From positions 1 through 46,097 of the forward strand of contig NZ_LGHS01000048.1 in assembly GCF_001202025.1 (NCBI RefSeq): a DNA stretch of 46,097 nt, in the 5' to 3' direction. The notes beneath the pieces were generated by a model. That model was not told the origin of the DNA. It was given only the letters and a program-made list of their open reading frames with translations, and did not search any database. This DNA is from Pseudorhodobacter aquimaris (GTDB lineage Bacteria; Pseudomonadota; Alphaproteobacteria; Rhodobacterales; Rhodobacteraceae). Shown in pieces: positions 2,510 through 35,033 of this stretch. The position numbers and the translations under genes are program-made. Numbering within the stretch: the stretch's first letter is position 1; every line of letters starts with the position of its first letter.

Positions 2510-3442
2510 TTAACGTGCAGCGTGGAAATTCTGGCCAAGGGCGGCGGGTGCATTTAGCGCGGCACGGCCCCGACCCGATGACATGATCACCAGCACGATG
2601 ATCGTTATCACATAGGGTGACATCGACAAGTATTCCGGCGGGATCGGAACATTGGCAACCTGTAAATTCAGCTGTAGCACCGAGATTCCGCCAAACAGAT
2701 AGGCCCCGATCAGCACGCGCCATGGCCGCCAGCTTGCAAAAACCACAATCGCCAGCGCGATCCAGCCCGCCCCCGCGGTCACACCATCGGTCCATTGCGG
2801 CACGCGGATCAGGCTTAGATATGCGCCGCCAAGGCCCGCCATCGCCCCCCCGAACAGGATCGCCAATACGCGGATGCGGGTGACCTTATAGCCGAGTGCA
2901 TGGGCGGCGTCATGGCTCTCGCCCACGGCGCGGATGATCAACCCCATGCGGGTGAATTTGAGCGTGGCCCAGACCGCTGCAATGATGCCAATGGAGATAT
3001 AGACCATCGGATCATGGCGAAACAGCACCCGCCCCAGCACCGGAATATCGGCCAGCGGCCCGAAGGGCACCATGCCCGTGGCCGGTGGCTTGATCCCGAC
3101 ATAACCTTGGCCCATCAAGCTGGACAATCCCAAACCAAAAAGCGTCAACGCAAGGCCTGTTGCCACCTGATTGGCCTGCAACACTTGGGTCAAAAGGGCA
3201 AATATCAGGCTAAGCACCGCCGCGCCCACGGCCCCGCCGATAAACCCCAAAAACGGGCTTCCGGTTTCAACGGCGGTGATGAACCCGCAAATCGCGCCGA
3301 TGATCATCATCCCCTCGACACCAAGGTTCAACACACCGGATTTTTCCACGACCAATTCCCCAATCGCGGCCAGCATGATCGGCACCGCCGCCACCATAAG
3401 CGATGCGATCAGAACGGCGGGGTTGATACTGCTCAGGTCCAT
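2510..3442 (-). CDS. BMP-type ABC transporter permease (second permease)
   Basis: A 310-aa polytopic membrane protein of the BPD_transp_2 (branched-chain/ribose-type) permease fold found with BMP nucleoside binding proteins. It begins MDLSSINPAVLIAS and has hydrophobic segments throughout. The family-typical ELVVEKSGVLNLGVEGMM occurs in the first 50 residues. The start codon shares one base with the stop of the preceding permease gene (TGATG at 3442), so the two are probably translationally coupled. Its partner permease ends at 3442 and the binding protein follows. Substrate range cannot be read from the permease itself. Confidence 0.88.
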   Translation of the reverse strand: MDLSSINPAVLIASLMVAAVPIMLAAIGELVVEKSGVLNLGVEGMMIIGAICGFITAVETGSPFLGFIGGAVGAAVLSLIFALLTQVLQANQVATGLALTLFGLGLSSLMGQGYVGIKPPATGMVPFGPLADIPVLGRVLFRHDPMVYISIGIIAAVWATLKFTRMGLIIRAVGESHDAAHALGYKVTRIRVLAILFGGAMAGLGGAYLSLIRVPQWTDGVTAGAGWIALAIVVFASWRPWRVLIGAYLFGGISVLQLNLQVANVPIPPEYLSMSPYVITIIVLVIMSSGRGRAALNAPAALGQNFHAAR

Positions 3443-27228: not shown

Positions 27229-28185
27229 TCAGGTGAAATAAGGTGCAAGGTTTGTACGAACCCGCTCCAGTGGCGTGTCGCCAGATGTATCGGGGATAAA
27301 TATCTGGCCCGTGATCGCCTCATAGGCATCGATATAGGTTCGCGCGGTGGCGGCGATCATATCGGCAGGGATCTCGGGGATCGCATCGTGATAGGGGTCA
27401 CAGCGCTCGGCTACCCAGGCACGGATGACATCCTTGTCAAAGGATGGCGGCCTGCTGCCGGTCGCCAGCGCCTGCTGATAGCCGTCCGCCAACCAATAGC
27501 GTGAACTGTCAGGGGTGTGGATCTCATCGGCCAGCATGATGTTGCCCTCGGCATCAACGCCGAATTCATATTTCGTATCGACAAGGATCAAGCCGTTTTT
27601 GGCCGACATTTCCTGCCCCCGCGCAAACAGGGCCAGCGAGATCGCGGATATCCGGTCCCATTGCTTTGCGGACAACAGCCCTTGGGACATGATTTCATCC
27701 GCCGTCATCGGCTCGTCGTGGCCACCGTCAAAGGCCTTGGAGGTGGGGGTGATAATCGGTGTCGGCAGGGCCTGATTGTCGCGCAAGCCATCAGGAAGGT
27801 TATGCCCGTACATCTGCCGCGCGCCCTTTTTGTACAGCGTCAGAATAGAGGTCCCTGTGGTCCCGGCAAGATAGCCGCGCACAACAATCTCAACCGGCAG
27901 GATGGTCAAGCGTTTCCCGATCACCACATTGGGGTCGGGATATTCAAGCACATGGTTGGGGCAAATATCGCGGGTCAGGTCGAACCAGTACCGCGCGGTT
28001 TGGGTCAGAACCTGCCCCTTGAACGGGATCGCCGCAAGAATACGGTCAAAGGCTGAAATCCGGTCTGATGAAATCAGGATCCGCCGATCATCTGGCAGAT
28101 CATAACAATCCCTGACCTTGCCGAAATAGGGATTCGGGAGTTCTGGGATACTGGCATCTTCAAGGACGCGGGTCAGATCAAGCAT
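27229..28185 (-). CDS. purC: SAICAR synthase (phosphoribosylaminoimidazole-succinocarboxamide synthase)
   Basis: Joins CAIR and aspartate in purine synthesis. At 318 aa this is the longer form, resembling the yeast-type enzyme rather than the roughly 240-aa form. Motifs are [42 protein letters not shown] and [18 protein letters not shown]-like site (GGAGGCCCCG on the minus strand) precedes the start. The kinase and dtd genes follow in the same direction. Confidence 0.94.
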
Positions 28186-28337: not shown

Positions 28338-29438
28338 TTATTGACCGAGATAGGCAAAGACGCCCAGTAACAGCGCAGCAATCAGAACGGCAAAAGTAAT
28401 CTTCCAGATGGAATAGGGCCGCTCTCCCTGCACTTTCCCGGTTTGCCCGTTCACCACAAAACGGTAGGTCTTGCCATTATATTTATAGGCCGCCATCCAG
28501 ATCGGCAGCAGGATATGCTTGAATGTCTCGGCGCCGTAGTTGGTTTCGACCGCACTTATGCGTTGCTCATCACCGCCAATATCACGTGCCACATCCCGCT
28601 TGATCACCTGTGCCATGATCTCTTTTGCATGGGCGCTACCGTCTGACAGGCTGACGGTATAGCCCTCTGCCATGAAACCCGCCAGATAATCGGCGCGGTA
28701 GGGCACCAGCGCGCCCAGATCCCATGGCTCCAGCCCTTTGGTATAGCTGCGCGGCAGGCTTTGCGCCGCCATCACAAGCACATCGTCAAAGGCGCGGGCC
28801 ACACGGCCTGACACGGATCGCCACCGGGTTTTGCGGACCTGTTCGCGCCGCTGTTGCCGCTTGCCATCCACCACGACGGTGACATTGCGGGTCTCGTAAT
28901 AATAGGTGCCGCGCTGACCGGCATAGCGTGACTGCGTCGCCGCATCAAAGGTCCAATAGGGCATGTAAAGCCCCGAGAGCGTACGCCCTTTGCGCGCATA
29001 TTCCACCAGCCCGCCCGGCGCGAACCAAAGGCTGCCAAGCCATTTGCCCATCGCATCACGCGCTGTGCGCTCATCCAGTTGAAACGGGATCAGCGCTTGG
29101 GGCTTGATCTGGCGGTTGGTGCCGGTGCCGATGACCAGCGGAGTTGCACAAAACGGACATGCAGTGGCATGTTTCGCGCCCTCGAATTCCACCAACGCAC
29201 CGCAATTCGTACATCGGGTGGTTTGCGGCTCTTCCATCGCGGTCTGCGGAAGGTCGTTGCGCAGCCCTTGGGCAAGGGGGTGTTCCACCAAGGCCGTGCG
29301 CCGGTCATGCACTGCCGCCGCCGGGATCTCTTGTACGTTGCCGCAATGATCGCAGCGCATCTGGGTCTGGCCGGGGGCAAAGCGCAGCTCTGCCCCGCAG
29401 CTGTCACAGGGCCAGCGGCGGTCGTGCTCTGCGCTCAC
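28338..29438 (-). CDS. Zinc-ribbon membrane protein (TFIIB-type ribbon, YdjG-like)
   Basis: A 366-aa protein with two zinc ribbons at the N-terminus (CDSCGAE with CDHCGN, then CTNCGAL with CPFC), a central soluble domain (TFDAATQSRYAGQRGTYYYE), and a single C-terminal membrane helix (ITFAVLIAALLLGVFAYLG). It starts with GTG at 29438, one base after the SPFH gene stop, with GGAG seven bases upstream. It is the last gene of the cluster. Proteins with this layout accompany SPFH proteins in other bacteria (B. subtilis ydjFGHI envelope-stress operon). A role in membrane stress is inferred from this parallel. Confidence 0.8.
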   Translation of the reverse strand: MSAEHDRRWPCDSCGAELRFAPGQTQMRCDHCGNVQEIPAAAVHDRRTALVEHPLAQGLRNDLPQTAMEEPQTTRCTNCGALVEFEGAKHATACPFCATPLVIGTGTNRQIKPQALIPFQLDERTARDAMGKWLGSLWFAPGGLVEYARKGRTLSGLYMPYWTFDAATQSRYAGQRGTYYYETRNVTVVVDGKRQQRREQVRKTRWRSVSGRVARAFDDVLVMAAQSLPRSYTKGLEPWDLGALVPYRADYLAGFMAEGYTVSLSDGSAHAKEIMAQVIKRDVARDIGGDEQRISAVETNYGAETFKHILLPIWMAAYKYNGKTYRFVVNGQTGKVQGERPYSIWKITFAVLIAALLLGVFAYLGQ

Positions 29439-29439
29439 G

Positions 29440-30549
29440 TTACGCTCCGGGGGGTGGTGGAGGGGCGACGGTGAATAGCTGTGCCAGTTCTGCTATCTCA
29501 CCGGCGGCGATCCAGCCATCCTGACCCGCCGTCCAGACAAGCGTGTCGCGGGCAAAGCTGCCTTCGGTGATCATGCGGCCAAGGTGGCTGCGTGAAAACG
29601 GCCCTGACGTGGTCCCATCCTTGGCGGTATGCCAGAGCTTTTCCGGCGCAGGTGGCGGCGGTGGTGGCGGCATTTGGTCGGGTCCGGCCTGAACGGGTCT
29701 GGCCCCCCACGGGCCCATGGCCTGTGCCATCCCCATGCCGATACCGGCGCCGACGCCCGCACCCATGGCGGCCCCTGCTGCCGATCCTGATTGTGCCATG
29801 CTCTCGGCCGCGTTGAACTTCATATAGCGGTCCAGATCACCGACAACGCCCATCGAGGTGCGCTTGTCCATCGCGGCCTCTACCGCTTCGGGCAGAGAGA
29901 TATTTTCGATGTAAAGTTCGGGCAGCGACAGGCCGTATTCCGCGATTTGCGGGTTGATCGCGGTGGCGACCAGCTTGCCCAGATCGGCGGTATTGGCGGC
30001 CATATCCAGAACGGGGATCTGGCTTGCAGCCAGTGCGCGGCTCATCTCTTGCAAGATCACGTTGCGGATCTGATAGCTGATCTCATCGGCGGTAAACTCG
30101 CCGTCGGTGCCGACGATTTCGCTCATGAAGCGGGCCGGATCGGTGACGCGCATCGAATAGGTGCCAAAGGCGCGGATGCGCACGGGGCCGAATTCCGGAT
30201 CGCGGGTCATGATCGGGTTTTTAGTACCCCATTTCAGGTCGTTGAAACGGGTGGTGTTGATAAAATAGATCTCGGATTTGAAAGGCGATTGAAACCCGTG
30301 ATCCCAGTGCTGAAGCGCGGTCATCACCGGCATGTTGTTGGTTTCCAACATATAAAGGCCGGGACCAAAGACATCGGCCAGCTGGCCCTCATGGATGAAT
30401 ACGGCGGCCTGACCTTCTCGGACGGTCAGTTTGGCGCCGTATTTGATCTCGTTCCCGTGGCGTTCAAACCGCCAGACCATTGTGTCGCGGGTGTCATCCG
30501 TCCATGAGATGACGTCAATAAACTGGCCTTTGAGAAAGTCGAATACCAT
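29440..30549 (-). CDS. SPFH-domain protein with C-terminal GYF_2 domain (YdjI/virion-core-like)
   Basis: A 369-aa protein of the SPFH class that resembles B. subtilis YdjI and the poxvirus 'virion core' annotation group. The N-terminal two-thirds is SPFH (GQAAVFIHEGQLADVFGPG; VRIRAFGTYSMRV). A glycine-alanine-methionine-rich linker (GAAMGAGVGAGIGMG) and a proline run follow, then a GYF_2/DUF4339 module (WHTAKDGTTSGPFSR to WTAGQDGWIAAGE). There is no obvious membrane helix. The start at 30549 is preceded by GGAAG. It is directly followed by the zinc-ribbon gene and preceded by the DUF2927 gene. Confidence 0.85.
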   Translation of the reverse strand: MVFDFLKGQFIDVISWTDDTRDTMVWRFERHGNEIKYGAKLTVREGQAAVFIHEGQLADVFGPGLYMLETNNMPVMTALQHWDHGFQSPFKSEIYFINTTRFNDLKWGTKNPIMTRDPEFGPVRIRAFGTYSMRVTDPARFMSEIVGTDGEFTADEISYQIRNVILQEMSRALAASQIPVLDMAANTADLGKLVATAINPQIAEYGLSLPELYIENISLPEAVEAAMDKRTSMGVVGDLDRYMKFNAAESMAQSGSAAGAAMGAGVGAGIGMGMAQAMGPWGARPVQAGPDQMPPPPPPPAPEKLWHTAKDGTTSGPFSRSHLGRMITEGSFARDTLVWTAGQDGWIAAGEIAELAQLFTVAPPPPPGA

Positions 30550-30559
30550 TTGTGCTTCC

Positions 30560-31536
30560 TTAACTGTCGCCGCCGACAAGGGATTCGGCGAGTTGGTCGA
30601 TAATGGGGCGGGCCTCGGCCAGGGTCATGCCGGGCGTGAGGCGCTTGTCATAGAGCATTTTCAGCATCATCTCATCCATCGGGGTCAGCAGGGCAAATTC
30701 CTGATCGTCGTTAAAGATGGAGGGACGCGCCTGCGGGCTGTCATTGGGCAGGCCAAGCCCTTGGGTGATTTCCTCATGCAGACAGGACAGGTGCAAAAGA
30801 TCGGGATGTTCGGCGCGTACGACGGCAAAGGCGCGCTCGATCAGGCTGGTGCTGTCATCGATCGAAGTGGTGACCTGACAATAGGTCGACTCCGGCATAT
30901 TGATGATGGAGTCCAGCTCTGCCTCGCCGATGCTGGGATCGGTGCGTCGGACGGTCGGGCCGATGGCCTTGATTTCATCCGTGTTCAGGATGTGCAGGTG
31001 AAAGTTCACACCACTGTTTGCCAGCTGAATGGAATGGCCCGTCAGCCGCGCCAGCGCGCAAGGAAAGAGCGCACCCGCGCCTCTTCAATCGCCCGCTGTT
31101 TTTGAGGCACAGAGGTGCCAAAATTTAACCCGACGCGCACCGGCTTTTGCCAACGGCGTAGCCTTTTTTCCGTGACGCGCGCGATAAGCCTGCCCGAGGA
31201 GCTGTCAAATTCGTCATAAAATGCGATACGGGCAAAGTTATTTGCCAGCATCCGCGCCGAAAATGGGGCATCCTTGGCGCCGGTATCGGTGCGCATCAGG
31301 CCTTGGGACAAAAGCTCGGCCTGCACACCCGCGTAATAGGCGCGCAGGGCCTTGCTCGCGGCTGAGGGGGTGGCTACTTCGGGGGCCAGAACACGGGCGG
31401 GGGGCGGTTGCGTGGCGCGCCCCTCAATCCTCGAAGAGCTTATGCAGCCCGTCAATACCCCGGCAGAAGCGACCATCACGATCGCGCCTTTCAAGGTGTT
31501 CGGGGCCAGTTTCAGCGGCAAAGGCACGCGGGCCAT
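30560..31536 (-). pseudogene. DUF2927 lipoprotein, split by a single-base frameshift
   Basis: Two adjacent reading frames together make one DUF2927 protein of about 325 aa. The upstream frame (31536-31042) has a lipoprotein signal ending in a lipobox (GVLTGC) and the N-terminal part (DAPFSARMLANNFARIAFYD; VGLNFGTSVP). It stops just after RVRSFLARWRG. The downstream frame reads ARLTGHSIQLANSG into NFHLHILNTDE and then LSCLHEEITQGLGLPNDS and RPSIFNDDQEFALLT to 30560. One missing base at about 31051-31056 (CGCTGG for an expected CGCCTGG) explains the break. It is unclear whether this is a sequencing error or a real loss. It lies between the TelA and SPFH genes of the cluster. Confidence 0.85.
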
Positions 31537-31551
31537 CCTGTGTGGTATCCT

Positions 31552-32748
31552 CTATTTCCGGTCTGGCGCACTGGTGCCGACCGTATCGCCCAAGCCGTCC
31601 TTGCGCCCGCTGGCGGCGGCAAGCGTGTCGCGTAGTTCATGCTCCATCTTCACCAGTTCCTCCTCTGCGGCGGCACGTTTGGCCTTGCCCTCATCCGCGA
31701 TGGCGAGGCTTTCATTGATCGTGGCGATCAATGTGGCATTGGCCTTTTTCACCGCTTCGATATCAAACACGCCGCGTTCCATTTCGGTGCGCACTATACG
31801 GTTGGTTTGTTGCAGATTTTCGGCGTTGGAGGTCAGCAGCTCATTTGTCAGGTCATTTGCGGCGCGGATGCTTTGCGCGGCTTCGCGCGACCGCTGGATG
31901 GTGACCGCTTGTGCCAATTGGGTTTCCCACAGCGGCACGGTGTTGACGAGGGTGGAGTTGATCTTGGTGACCAGGCTCTTGTCGTTTTCCTGAACCAGAC
32001 GGATCGAGGGCAGCGACTGCATCGTGACCTGCCGCGTCAGCTTGAGGTCATGCACACGGCGTTCCAGATCATCGCGGGCCGAACGCAGGTCACGCAGCTC
32101 TTGCGCCTTCATCACCTGTTTTTCCTCGGGCGCGGCTTTGACCTCGGCCTCTTTGGCCGGAATGTCCTTGGCGTCAAGCTCTTGGATCTTGGCCTCACCG
32201 GCGGCAATATAAAGCGCCAGCTCGTCATAGAAGCTCAGCGTCTTGTCATAAAGAAGGTCCAGCGATTTGATATCCTTGAGCAGCGTATGCTCATGGCCCA
32301 GCAGGGTTTCTGTGATGTCGTCGATCTGGCCCTGAACGTTTTCGAATTTCGCGACGAAATTGGCAAAGGGCGCGGCGCGGCCCAGAAGTTTTTCCCACCA
32401 CGTCCGGTCACGGCGCACGTCAAGCTCCGAGACCGAGAACCCGCGGATGGTGCCGACCATCTTGCGCAGGCTGTCGCCCGCAGGCCCCACGTCCTTGTTT
32501 TTGACATCGGCCAGCATTTCCTGGGAAATCACCTGCAATTCGGCCTGTGCAGAGGAGCCGAAAGAGATAATGGATTGGGTGTTGTCGATATTGATCTCGG
32601 CCATCCGCTTTTGGATCTCGGCGGCATGGGCGGGGGTTGCGGCCTCCAGCGTGACCAGATCGCGCCCCGGTTCGGGCAGGATCACGGCGGTGACTTGTTC
32701 AACTTCTGCCAGGGCAGCGGCGGCTTTTTGCTGGGTCGATTGGGCCAT
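31552..32748 (-). CDS. TelA/YaaN family protein (toxic anion resistance)
   Basis: A 398-aa, largely helical cytoplasmic protein of the TelA family, annotated for tellurite resistance. Visible family stretches are WWEKLLGRAAPFANFVAKFE, LLKDIKSLDLLYDKTL, and RLVQENDKSLVTKINSTL with the following PLWETQLAQAV. Extended heptad repeats suggest coiled coils. Its neighbour is an XpaC-like gene 34 bp upstream, the same pairing as xpaC-yaaN in Bacillus. The mechanism is unknown; a membrane-associated stress role is inferred from the cluster. Confidence 0.9.
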   Translation of the reverse strand: MAQSTQQKAAAALAEVEQVTAVILPEPGRDLVTLEAATPAHAAEIQKRMAEINIDNTQSIISFGSSAQAELQVISQEMLADVKNKDVGPAGDSLRKMVGTIRGFSVSELDVRRDRTWWEKLLGRAAPFANFVAKFENVQGQIDDITETLLGHEHTLLKDIKSLDLLYDKTLSFYDELALYIAAGEAKIQELDAKDIPAKEAEVKAAPEEKQVMKAQELRDLRSARDDLERRVHDLKLTRQVTMQSLPSIRLVQENDKSLVTKINSTLVNTVPLWETQLAQAVTIQRSREAAQSIRAANDLTNELLTSNAENLQQTNRIVRTEMERGVFDIEAVKKANATLIATINESLAIADEGKAKRAAAEEELVKMEHELRDTLAAASGRKDGLGDTVGTSAPDRK

Positions 32749-32782
32749 CAGATACTCTCACTCTTCAATGCGCGGACGCAGA

Positions 32783-33658
32783 TTAACGGTTCTCAAAGGC
32801 CAGGCGTTCCCGCAGGACTTCGATTTCAACATTCAGGTCGCTGTGATTGTCGGACAAAAGGGCGGTGGTGCGGTTCGCGAAATTAGTTTCCAGATCGGTT
32901 AGCAGGGATTCATATTCCGCGCGGATATTCGGGTCGCGATTGCCGCTGTAGAGGTCGACAAATTTCACCGTCGCATCACGGGCACCCTGCAGATAAACGC
33001 CAAGGTATTTCCGAGCCGCCGTCAGGTCGCGCGGGTCGTTTTCGACGGTGCGAAACAGCTGTCGTGCAATATCGTTGAAGCGGTCAACGCGGCGTTCAAG
33101 CTGATGGTCACGGGCGCGGGCAATGGCGGCCTTCATCGCGGTTAGATGGGCCTCGCCGGTGTCGATCGCCTTTGTCACGCGGTCAGTCTGGAAACTGTCG
33201 ACGCCCTCGATACCCTTATCAGCCATCGGATCAAAGCCGAAGGACCCGATGTGCAAAAACGCCCCCAATGTGGCAATTACCGTGGCGATAACCGAGGACT
33301 GTCCCGCCATAAGCATGCCAACGCCAAGCCCGCCGCCAATCAACAGCGCCCCGATTGCCTTGCGTGGCAGCGCAGGTCTGCGGGCAACGCGGCGCGCATC
33401 ATAGGCTTCTTGTGCAAAAAGCCCTTCGCGCGTCATCCATGCCCCGCCGATCATCATGGCAAAGGCGATCAGCCCGTAGATCAATGTGGTTGGTTCCCCT
33501 TGAAACGCTTTCCAGGCAAAGGGGAGAGGCAAGATAAACAGCAGGTTGGATTTCAACCCTGCCTTGCTGCGCCGCTTGCCCTGAAACGAATTTGGCGCGG
33601 GGGTGTTTTCATTCTGGTTGCCGCCGGGGCTGTATTTTCCACCAAAACGTTGCCCCAT
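32783..33658 (-). CDS. XpaC-like membrane protein (5-bromo-4-chloroindolyl phosphate hydrolysis family)
   Basis: A 291-aa protein with a basic, glycine/asparagine-rich N-terminus, then hydrophobic segments (NLLFILPLPFAWKAF; LIYGLIAFAMMIGGAWM; the long stretch from KAIGALLIGGG to LGAFLHIGSFGFD), and a C-terminal helical domain (DPRDLTAARKYLGVYLQGA). This matches XpaC, named for a phosphatase phenotype but without a proven enzyme activity. The start at 33658 overlaps the stop of the 68-aa gene by one base (TGATG). A longer upstream extension runs through that gene and is rejected. Confidence 0.85.
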   Translation of the reverse strand: MGQRFGGKYSPGGNQNENTPAPNSFQGKRRSKAGLKSNLLFILPLPFAWKAFQGEPTTLIYGLIAFAMMIGGAWMTREGLFAQEAYDARRVARRPALPRKAIGALLIGGGLGVGMLMAGQSSVIATVIATLGAFLHIGSFGFDPMADKGIEGVDSFQTDRVTKAIDTGEAHLTAMKAAIARARDHQLERRVDRFNDIARQLFRTVENDPRDLTAARKYLGVYLQGARDATVKFVDLYSGNRDPNIRAEYESLLTDLETNFANRTTALLSDNHSDLNVEIEVLRERLAFENR

Positions 33659-33864
33659 CAAAGTACCTCCATCGTTGCGACATAAAGGGTCAGCGCCGCC
33701 AGCAGACAAAATGACAAGGTTTGTAACCCGAAAAACGGGCTTGACCGGGTTGGTGCGACGCTGGTTTGGGGCGCCGGTTTCGCCCCCTGTACCTTGGCTA
33801 TGACAAATATGATCAGCGCGAATGGTATCAGGACCATGATCACCCTGAGCAGCATTACAATCAT
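33658..33864 (-). CDS. Small membrane protein, 68 aa, first gene of the XpaC-TelA-SPFH cluster
   Basis: Two hydrophobic segments flank a short polar loop: MIVMLLRVIMVLIPFALIIF at the N-terminus and LSFCLLAALTLYVATMEVL at the C-terminus. I do not recognise a family. It is judged real because it has a strong ribosome-binding site (CGGAGG, eight bases before ATG) and its stop overlaps the XpaC start by one base. It would be a two-helix inner-membrane partner of the cluster. A possible -10 (TATAGT, about 55 bp upstream on the minus strand) lies in the preceding gap. Confidence 0.75.
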   Translation of the reverse strand: MIVMLLRVIMVLIPFALIIFVIAKVQGAKPAPQTSVAPTRSSPFFGLQTLSFCLLAALTLYVATMEVL

Positions 33865-33991: not shown

Positions 33992-34891
33992 TCAGGCGCG
34001 CCGCTGGCGGGGTTGTGCCGGTTTTCCCGCACGCTTTGGGCCGGGTTTGCCCGTCGAAGGCTTGGCCCCCGCGTTCGGTTTGGCAATACGCGGGCCTTTG
34101 GGGCGGGGTTTCGGGGCCACGGCATCCTCGGGGGTTTCGCGCTGGCCAAGCTGGTCGCGCAGAACGCGGCCCTTGACCTCTGTCACCATGCCCGGCGTCA
34201 TTTCACCAAGGCGGAACGGGCCATAGCTGATGCGGATCAAGCGGTTCACAGTCAGGTTGATCGCCGCCATGGTGCGGCGAATCTCGCGGTTCTTGCCCTC
34301 ACGCAGGCCCACCGTCAGCCAAGCATTTGCGCCCTGAATACGGTCAAGGATCACGATCATTGGCTGGAATTTTTCCCCGTCGATGGTGATCCCCCGGCGC
34401 AGCGGCTCCAGATCCGGCTCGGTCGGGTTGCCTTTTACGCGGACACGGTATTTGCGCAGCCAGCCGGTTGAGGGCAGCTCCAGCTTGCGCTTGAGGCCGC
34501 CGTCATTGGTCAGCAGCAACAACCCTTCAGAGTTGAGGTCAAGCCTGCCAACCGACATCACGCGGGGCAGATCCTCGGGGAGGTGGTCAAAGATCGTATC
34601 ACGGCCCTTTTCATCATTGTTCGAGGTCACCAACCCGTCGGGCTTATAGTAAAGCCAGAGCCGCGCGGGTTCGGGTTGGCCCACGGGTTGGCCGTCTACG
34701 GTGATACGGTCGCGGTCGGTAACATTCAGCGCGGGGCTGTCGATGACCTTGCCGTTTACCGCAACCTGCCCGATGGCGATCATACGCTCGGCCTCGCGGC
34801 GCGAGGCTATGCCTGCGCGCGACAGGACCTTGGCGATACGGTCACCTGCGGGGGTGGGTTTTGCGGCTGTGGTTTTGGGGGCTGTGGTCAT
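33992..34891 (-). CDS. 23S rRNA pseudouridine synthase, RluB/RsuA type
   Basis: A 299-aa pseudouridine synthase with an N-terminal S4 RNA-binding domain (RIAKVLSRAGIASRREAERMI) and the RsuA-family catalytic motif GRLDLNSEGLLLLTNDG with its aspartate. GLREGKNREIRRTM follows in the second half. The C-terminal 50 residues are a basic, proline/lysine-rich tail, as in many alphaproteobacterial RluB proteins. The start at 34891 (MTTAPKT) is chosen over one 39 bases upstream since the extra residues match nothing typical. It is divergent from tadA. RluB is favoured over RluE/RluF by length and tail. Confidence 0.88.
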   Translation of the reverse strand: MTTAPKTTAAKPTPAGDRIAKVLSRAGIASRREAERMIAIGQVAVNGKVIDSPALNVTDRDRITVDGQPVGQPEPARLWLYYKPDGLVTSNNDEKGRDTIFDHLPEDLPRVMSVGRLDLNSEGLLLLTNDGGLKRKLELPSTGWLRKYRVRVKGNPTEPDLEPLRRGITIDGEKFQPMIVILDRIQGANAWLTVGLREGKNREIRRTMAAINLTVNRLIRISYGPFRLGEMTPGMVTEVKGRVLRDQLGQRETPEDAVAPKPRPKGPRIAKPNAGAKPSTGKPGPKRAGKPAQPRQRRA

Positions 34892-35033
34892 GGGCTGGCC
34901 TTTTCTGGCGACGTCATCGCGACGTGGCAAAGCGCCGGAGGTCTATATACCCCCGAGCCGTCAAAGTATTTCGTCTGGCCGTTCACGGCAAGGGGGGATT
35001 GCGTTTTTCTGCCGGCAGGGGCAAGGCTGTGGC

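Follow-up and report, generated by a model that had tools for sequence, protein, structure and literature searches.

YdjG, from the pspA(ydjF)-ydjG-ydjH-ydjI gene set of Bacillus subtilis, is a zinc-ribbon protein. Passages of PMC8581546 describe YdjI as likely soluble, with a membrane localisation that depends on YdjG and YdjH, and the localisation of PspA as requiring YdjI. For the XpaC-TelA pair of Listeria (lmo1966-1967), passages of PMC12791056 report modest up-regulation under garvicin KS (log2 fold changes of 0.63 and 0.61) and, after disruption of telA, an increased susceptibility of 4-fold to nisin and 2-fold to tellurite. Citing O'Gara 1997, a passage of PMC6955997 lists telA of Rhodobacter sphaeroides among the chromosomal determinants of tellurite resistance. 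Here, a gene run was analysed that brings these types of genes together in a stretch of 46,097 nucleotides (nt) from Pseudorhodobacter aquimaris (contig NZ_LGHS01000048.1), called the window. The run occupies 28338 to 33864 of the minus strand with tiny gaps, is flanked by rluB (33992-34930) and purC (27229-28185), names assigned from translations, and encodes a 68-amino-acid (aa) protein, XpaC, TelA, a DUF2927 lipoprotein, an SPFH-GYF protein and a zinc-ribbon membrane protein (ZnR). The two gene pairs were already known; the combined set, the DUF2927 site and a microprotein are the new parts of the picture. No description of the combined set, nor of DUF2927, was found in searches of an open-licence paper library, in line with the initial annotation, which knew of no functional description of the combined set.

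Co-conservation and gene order

A survey was performed on 149 genomes of the Rhodobacteraceae (the genus Pseudorhodobacter is placed in the Paracoccaceae by the NCBI taxonomy), one per genus and including the window genome. TelA was detected in 133 of them, single-copy in nearly every genome, extra matches being gene fragments or below the cut-off. XpaC exceeded the cut-off in the identical 133 genomes and in none of the other 16, with a sub-cut-off match in TelA-negative G090. Strong SPFH matches (E below 1e-80) were present in 132 genomes, 131 of them TelA-positive, and ZnR in 133, of which 130 carry TelA. The TelA-positive genomes without strong SPFH (G098, G122) or without ZnR (G021, G068, G078) are all 76-84% complete. 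ZnR without TelA was seen in G022 and G095, where the SPFH frame leaves the contig just before ZnR, and in G119 (78% complete), where SPFH starts 110 nt into the contig; because SPFH lies at contig ends, the missing TelA genes look like assembly gaps. Thirteen genomes are without TelA, XpaC, strong SPFH and ZnR together. Fisher p-values for co-occurrence were 8e-22, 1e-17 and 2e-13, in a test that ignores phylogeny. On these counts the cluster is real and not a product of chance: its parts, for which a lack of co-conservation had been named beforehand as refuting, are almost always kept or missing together across this large family of mostly aquatic bacteria. DUF2927 follows the set less closely (142/149, including seven of the 13 set-lacking genomes) because a second, unlinked copy of about 470 aa is common.

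Gene order was examined in 60 TelA loci, taken in handle order from the 132 non-window TelA-positive genomes with G068 passed over. XpaC was found in 59, the C-terminal half of DUF2927 in 57, SPFH in 56, ZnR in 53, rluB in 48 (45 without two opposite-strand matches and one spurious partial match) and purC in 2; several of the misses are contig ends. When loci were instead ascertained by ZnR, the best 80 of 588 named loci contained SPFH in 79, TelA in 70, DUF2927 in 69, XpaC in 67 and the microprotein in 58, contig ends again being among the misses.

These counts bear on the possibility that XpaC-TelA and SPFH-ZnR are two independent modules with no more in common than a transcript, in a region where gene order changes slowly. 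Gene order around the locus does change slowly, as most of the 60 loci also retain rluB next to the set, and the set itself comes apart at various points, frequently where two modules meet. SPFH–ZnR stands alone in G004 and G083, and DUF2927–SPFH–ZnR in G018; XpaC–TelA–DUF2927 forms a piece in G083 and in G062, the latter with SPFH and ZnR on another contig, and microprotein–XpaC is found apart from TelA in G104 and G023. However, all six of these genomes still contain both modules, and the modules are jointly missing in 13 genomes (a count of genomes, not of loss events). Independent modules are therefore regarded as improbable.

Two further genes were seen beside or within the set. In 12 of the 60 loci, a same-strand gene for a TerC-family membrane protein precedes the XpaC match and stops 145-331 nt short of it (called by a PF03741 scan in L091, at 2535-3353, and by tblastn in the other 11). 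A cytochrome b561 protein is encoded between SPFH and ZnR in nine loci (L037, L058, L059, L064, L075, L078, L080, L088 and L089; PF01292 scanned in L037, E 1.8e-21).

Beyond the family, a set of 142 genomes drawn at close to one per family from the Alphaproteobacteria had TelA in 13, 11 of which lie outside the family of the window. Four of ten such TelA loci (G279, G205, G265, G212) read xpaC-telA-SPFH-znR, and at none of the four loci did DUF2927 or the microprotein match; in G205 a different small hydrophobic open reading frame (ORF) precedes xpaC, and G212 carries DUF2927 elsewhere in its genome. Eighteen further TelA loci, from 36 extra-family matches in a phylum sample, showed no ZnR and one weak SPFH match (G478), with family-built hidden Markov models (HMMs) that can miss diverged copies outside the family. 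In other alphaproteobacteria XpaC lies near TelA without SPFH or ZnR as judged by the family HMMs, and SPFH stands beside a ZnR homologue, with TelA absent, on plasmids of Vibrio, Comamonas, Tsukamurella and Enterococcus (ZnR tblastn identity 26-38%). Each module thus also stands separately elsewhere, which bears out the proposal that two modules are joined at one locus. By these searches, the core of four genes is seldom seen beyond the family. As neither the lipoprotein nor the microprotein was matched beside it there, both were presumably gained in or near the family, or lost elsewhere.

Parts of the locus and the rewritten lipoprotein site

The features of the locus are as follows.

33658 to 33864, minus strand: small protein (68 aa) containing two hydrophobic helices; the family-wide one-helix microprotein of about 27 aa corresponds to its C-terminal half
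32783 to 33658, minus strand: xpaC (PF10112, Pfam E 2.3e-28), C-terminal domain after hydrophobic segments
31552 to 32748, minus strand: telA (PF05816, Pfam E 8.6e-106)
31042 to 31536, minus strand: DUF2927 lipoprotein, N-terminal piece with lipobox (PF11150 positions 2-57, E 4.4e-9)
30560 to 31051, minus strand: DUF2927 lipoprotein, C-terminal piece in another frame, with the conserved motif (PF11150 positions 59-205, E 7e-46)
30740 to 30775, minus strand: EEITQGLGLPND, the EExxQxxGxxND motif replacing HExxHxxG..H (position checked)
29440 to 30549, minus strand: SPFH (Band_7_1) plus GYF_2 protein (PF13421 E 3.7e-103; PF14237 E 4.9e-18)
28338 to 29438, minus strand: ZnR, two CxxC..CxxC zinc ribbons, a conserved core and a C-terminal hydrophobic segment at residues 347-365 (hydropathy)

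The ORF of the 68-aa protein overlaps xpaC by 1 nt, and gaps of 34 nt (xpaC-telA), 15 nt (telA-DUF2927), 10 nt (DUF2927-SPFH, with the SPFH start at the ATG at 30549) and 1 nt (SPFH-ZnR) follow. By hydropathy, XpaC has at least two hydrophobic segments (101-119 and 123-141) and TelA none; a weak structure model predicts TelA to be all-helical. Pfam matches of ZnR were sub-threshold only and mostly to zinc ribbons, and all eight ribbon cysteines are invariant across 22 sequences. Pfam, cysteine and hydropathy data therefore agree with the initial annotation on XpaC, TelA, the SPFH-GYF protein and the zinc-ribbon membrane protein. Its layout of six same-strand genes with tiny gaps or overlaps was also recovered, except that DUF2927 is here split over two frames and not one gene. 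None of the seven window proteins matched PADLOC models of known anti-phage systems at E<=0.1, and their Pfam scan gave no tellurite-handling enzyme or transporter and no TPM match. The closest named relative found, Pseudorhodobacter turbinis, shows 88.7% DNA identity over 5.6 kb with identical gene order; its operon, rluB and purC sit on a 1.58-Mb record labelled as a plasmid (NZ_CP039965.1).

In the window, DUF2927 is encoded in two overlapping pieces in different frames, and alignment with three relatives places a one-base gap at the break point. Both halves lie within a single ORF in 54 of the 60 relatives' loci. Among the other six, L035, L045 and L048 have no such gene at the locus, in L087 it leaves the contig, and in L039 and L079 (two tandem copies) unbroken ORFs were missed by the half-by-half test. 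In total, 56/56 complete copies examined at sibling loci are unbroken, as is that of P. turbinis. An unbroken operon-type DUF2927 was found in seven of eight same-genus genomes, the eighth (87% complete) showing only the other paralogue. The break is, by this measure, an assembly error or a recent event, because the C-terminal piece is strongly constrained, with a ratio of nonsynonymous to synonymous substitution rates (dN/dS) of 0.04 against P. turbinis.

A matrix-metalloproteinase (metzincin) fold is predicted for DUF2927, in which the zinc motif HExxHxxG..H reads EExxQxxGxxND. The site columns are E, E, Q, G and D in 67/67 orthologues and N in 66/67, and HExxHxxG with a later His occurs in L252, L253, L254 and L256 only, out of 33 aligned stretches. 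Because the motif histidines are replaced while four divergent relatives keep them, the lipoprotein is probably a pseudoprotease. The replacement residues vary little or not at all across 67 orthologues, which is unlike a decaying site and would also suit an active metalloenzyme in which the E/E/Q/N/D residues hold a different metal; the motif histidines are absent, though, and we know of no peptidase of metzincin fold with such a site, which makes this an unlikely alternative to the pseudoprotease. The second, unlinked DUF2927 copy (about 460-510 aa), common in the genus and family, has the same EE..Q..G..ND site (L219, L221-L225), and in genome G593 seven DUF2927 matches are clustered in a single region.

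A microprotein paired with XpaC

An ORF with a hydrophobic helix and the consensus MSxxGLQKxAFxLLxxLxLxVxxxGG was found directly upstream of xpaC in 54 of the 60 loci; it shares 1 nt with xpaC in 25 and lies 2-3 nt away in 20. The remaining six comprise L035, L045 and L079, whose unlike candidates were set aside, L039 and L047, in which the XpaC start could not be aligned, and L052, which lacks XpaC. Forty-eight of the ORFs were read as 25-33 aa and six as 67-81 aa with an additional N-terminal helix, as in the window; starts were chosen by the analyst, and in L059, L075 and L088 both are possible. The initial annotation was right in giving the window protein of 68 aa two helices, but what it saw is a long variant of a one-helix microprotein of about 27 aa.

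The entropies at the three codon positions (0.95/0.72/1.53 in 21 27-mers and 0.85/0.47/1.28 in 15 29-mers) indicate that the microprotein ORF is coding, and the 68-aa ORF of the window is, judged from a dN/dS of 0.09 against P. turbinis, coding as well. A profile built from 46 sequences, without that of the window, was searched genome-wide and matched the window at 33670-33729 (E 1.3e-5). At E<=1e-3, it matched 58 of 79 held-out genomes (G070-G148), in 57 of them just upstream of XpaC and in the last, G119, on an XpaC-less contig. No match at this threshold was found in 14 of the 71 held-out genomes with XpaC, and XpaC-lacking genomes gave none except in G119. In both genomes in which xpaC has moved away from telA, the microprotein moved along with xpaC. 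Of the 46 microproteins, two single members weakly matched other one-helix proteins in Pfam (PsbT 0.0021, PetL 0.0052), and none matched NCBIfam at 0.01; for the 68-aa form, Pfam, NCBIfam and PADLOC all gave no match. By these library searches, the microprotein has no convincing match to a curated family.

Proposed function and known systems

In our reading, to which we assign a probability of about 0.55, the genes would form one functional unit, an inner-membrane complex for envelope surveillance and repair that is mostly independent of PspA in the family. PspA (PF04012) gave no match at E<=0.001 in the window genome and exceeded the cut-off in 25 of the 149 family genomes. The reading builds on this scarcity, on the observed co-conservation, gene order, microprotein-XpaC pairing and replacement of the motif histidines, and on the predicted metzincin fold; physical interactions, topology, sensing and effector roles and phenotype would be as follows. 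ZnR, with one membrane segment and zinc ribbons taken as cytoplasmic, could form a membrane platform together with XpaC and the microprotein. The SPFH-GYF protein, without a membrane segment of its own, would use ZnR for its assembly, just as YdjG/YdjH serve YdjI. SPFH and XpaC may draw helical, cytosolic TelA to the membrane, where it would act as effector, in the role of PspA in Bacillus. The DUF2927 lipoprotein would bind a periplasmic peptide or protein without cleaving it and signal envelope damage. Sensing or repair of membrane damage across both membranes, as suggested in the initial annotation, might be a function of the set, with the lipoprotein in either the inner or the outer membrane. 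More tentatively, and as a possibility that we hold with less than even confidence, the set may be a near-universal, largely PspA-independent repair machine of the Rhodobacteraceae, with a pseudo-metzincin lipoprotein, its site invariantly rewritten, as periplasmic damage sensor, an obligate 27-aa XpaC subunit and an SPFH-zinc-ribbon scaffold coupled to a PspA-like TelA.

The name of TelA suggests instead an operon primarily for resistance to tellurite or toxic oxyanions (metal stress). In its favour, 12 of the 60 loci have terC as the immediate upstream neighbour, and the telA of R. sphaeroides listed as a resistance determinant in the cited passage (PMC6955997) is probably an orthologue of the family TelA, because hardly any family genome has a second TelA. 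However, the seven window proteins lack Pfam matches to tellurite-handling enzymes or transporters, and telA disruption in Listeria affects nisin more than tellurite susceptibility, according to the same passages of PMC12791056. Tellurite sensitivity could moreover follow from envelope damage, and a primary role in tellurite resistance seems unlikely.

For TelA and XpaC, two widespread proteins whose names are old but which have no agreed mechanism, joint presence and absence with the SPFH–zinc-ribbon pair provides a role in membrane care that can be tested. The Rhodobacteraceae offer a large natural experiment in envelope care mostly without PspA. Two concrete new parts are the likely pseudoprotease, whose rewritten site is conserved, and the conserved membrane protein of some 27 residues, unnamed in curated libraries.

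HflKC-FtsH and QmcA-NfeD are known pairs of SPFH proteins and proteases. The locus shares with them an SPFH protein and a partner with a predicted peptidase fold, but here the motif histidines are missing and the partner is a lipoprotein. Compared with metzincins and matrixins (matrix metalloproteinases, karilysin), DUF2927 has Glu, Gln and Asn/Asp in place of the motif histidines, is a lipoprotein and carries an invariant Cys pair. With the xpaC-yaaN/telA pair of B. subtilis and Listeria lmo1966-1967, the locus shares a PF10112-type gene adjoining a TelA gene, although PF10112 itself was unmatched in the B. subtilis control genome; passages of PMC12791056 describe that pair as a two-gene operon, which is not known to include SPFH, ZnR or DUF2927.

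With pspA-ydjGHI of B. subtilis, the locus has in common an SPFH protein (PF13421, a family also matched in B. subtilis) beside a membrane protein, and its SPFH gene adjoins that of a zinc-ribbon membrane protein, the adjacency that marks a YdjGHI-type arrangement. The parallel drawn in the initial annotation is only half valid because PspA, which YdjI together with YdjG/H is known to recruit, is undetected here and scarce in the family. The window has TelA/XpaC, the DUF2927 lipoprotein and the microprotein in addition, with TPM unmatched among its seven proteins, and the SPFH-ZnR-TPM trio of Enterococcus bridges the window-type and the B. subtilis ydjFGHI-type arrangements.

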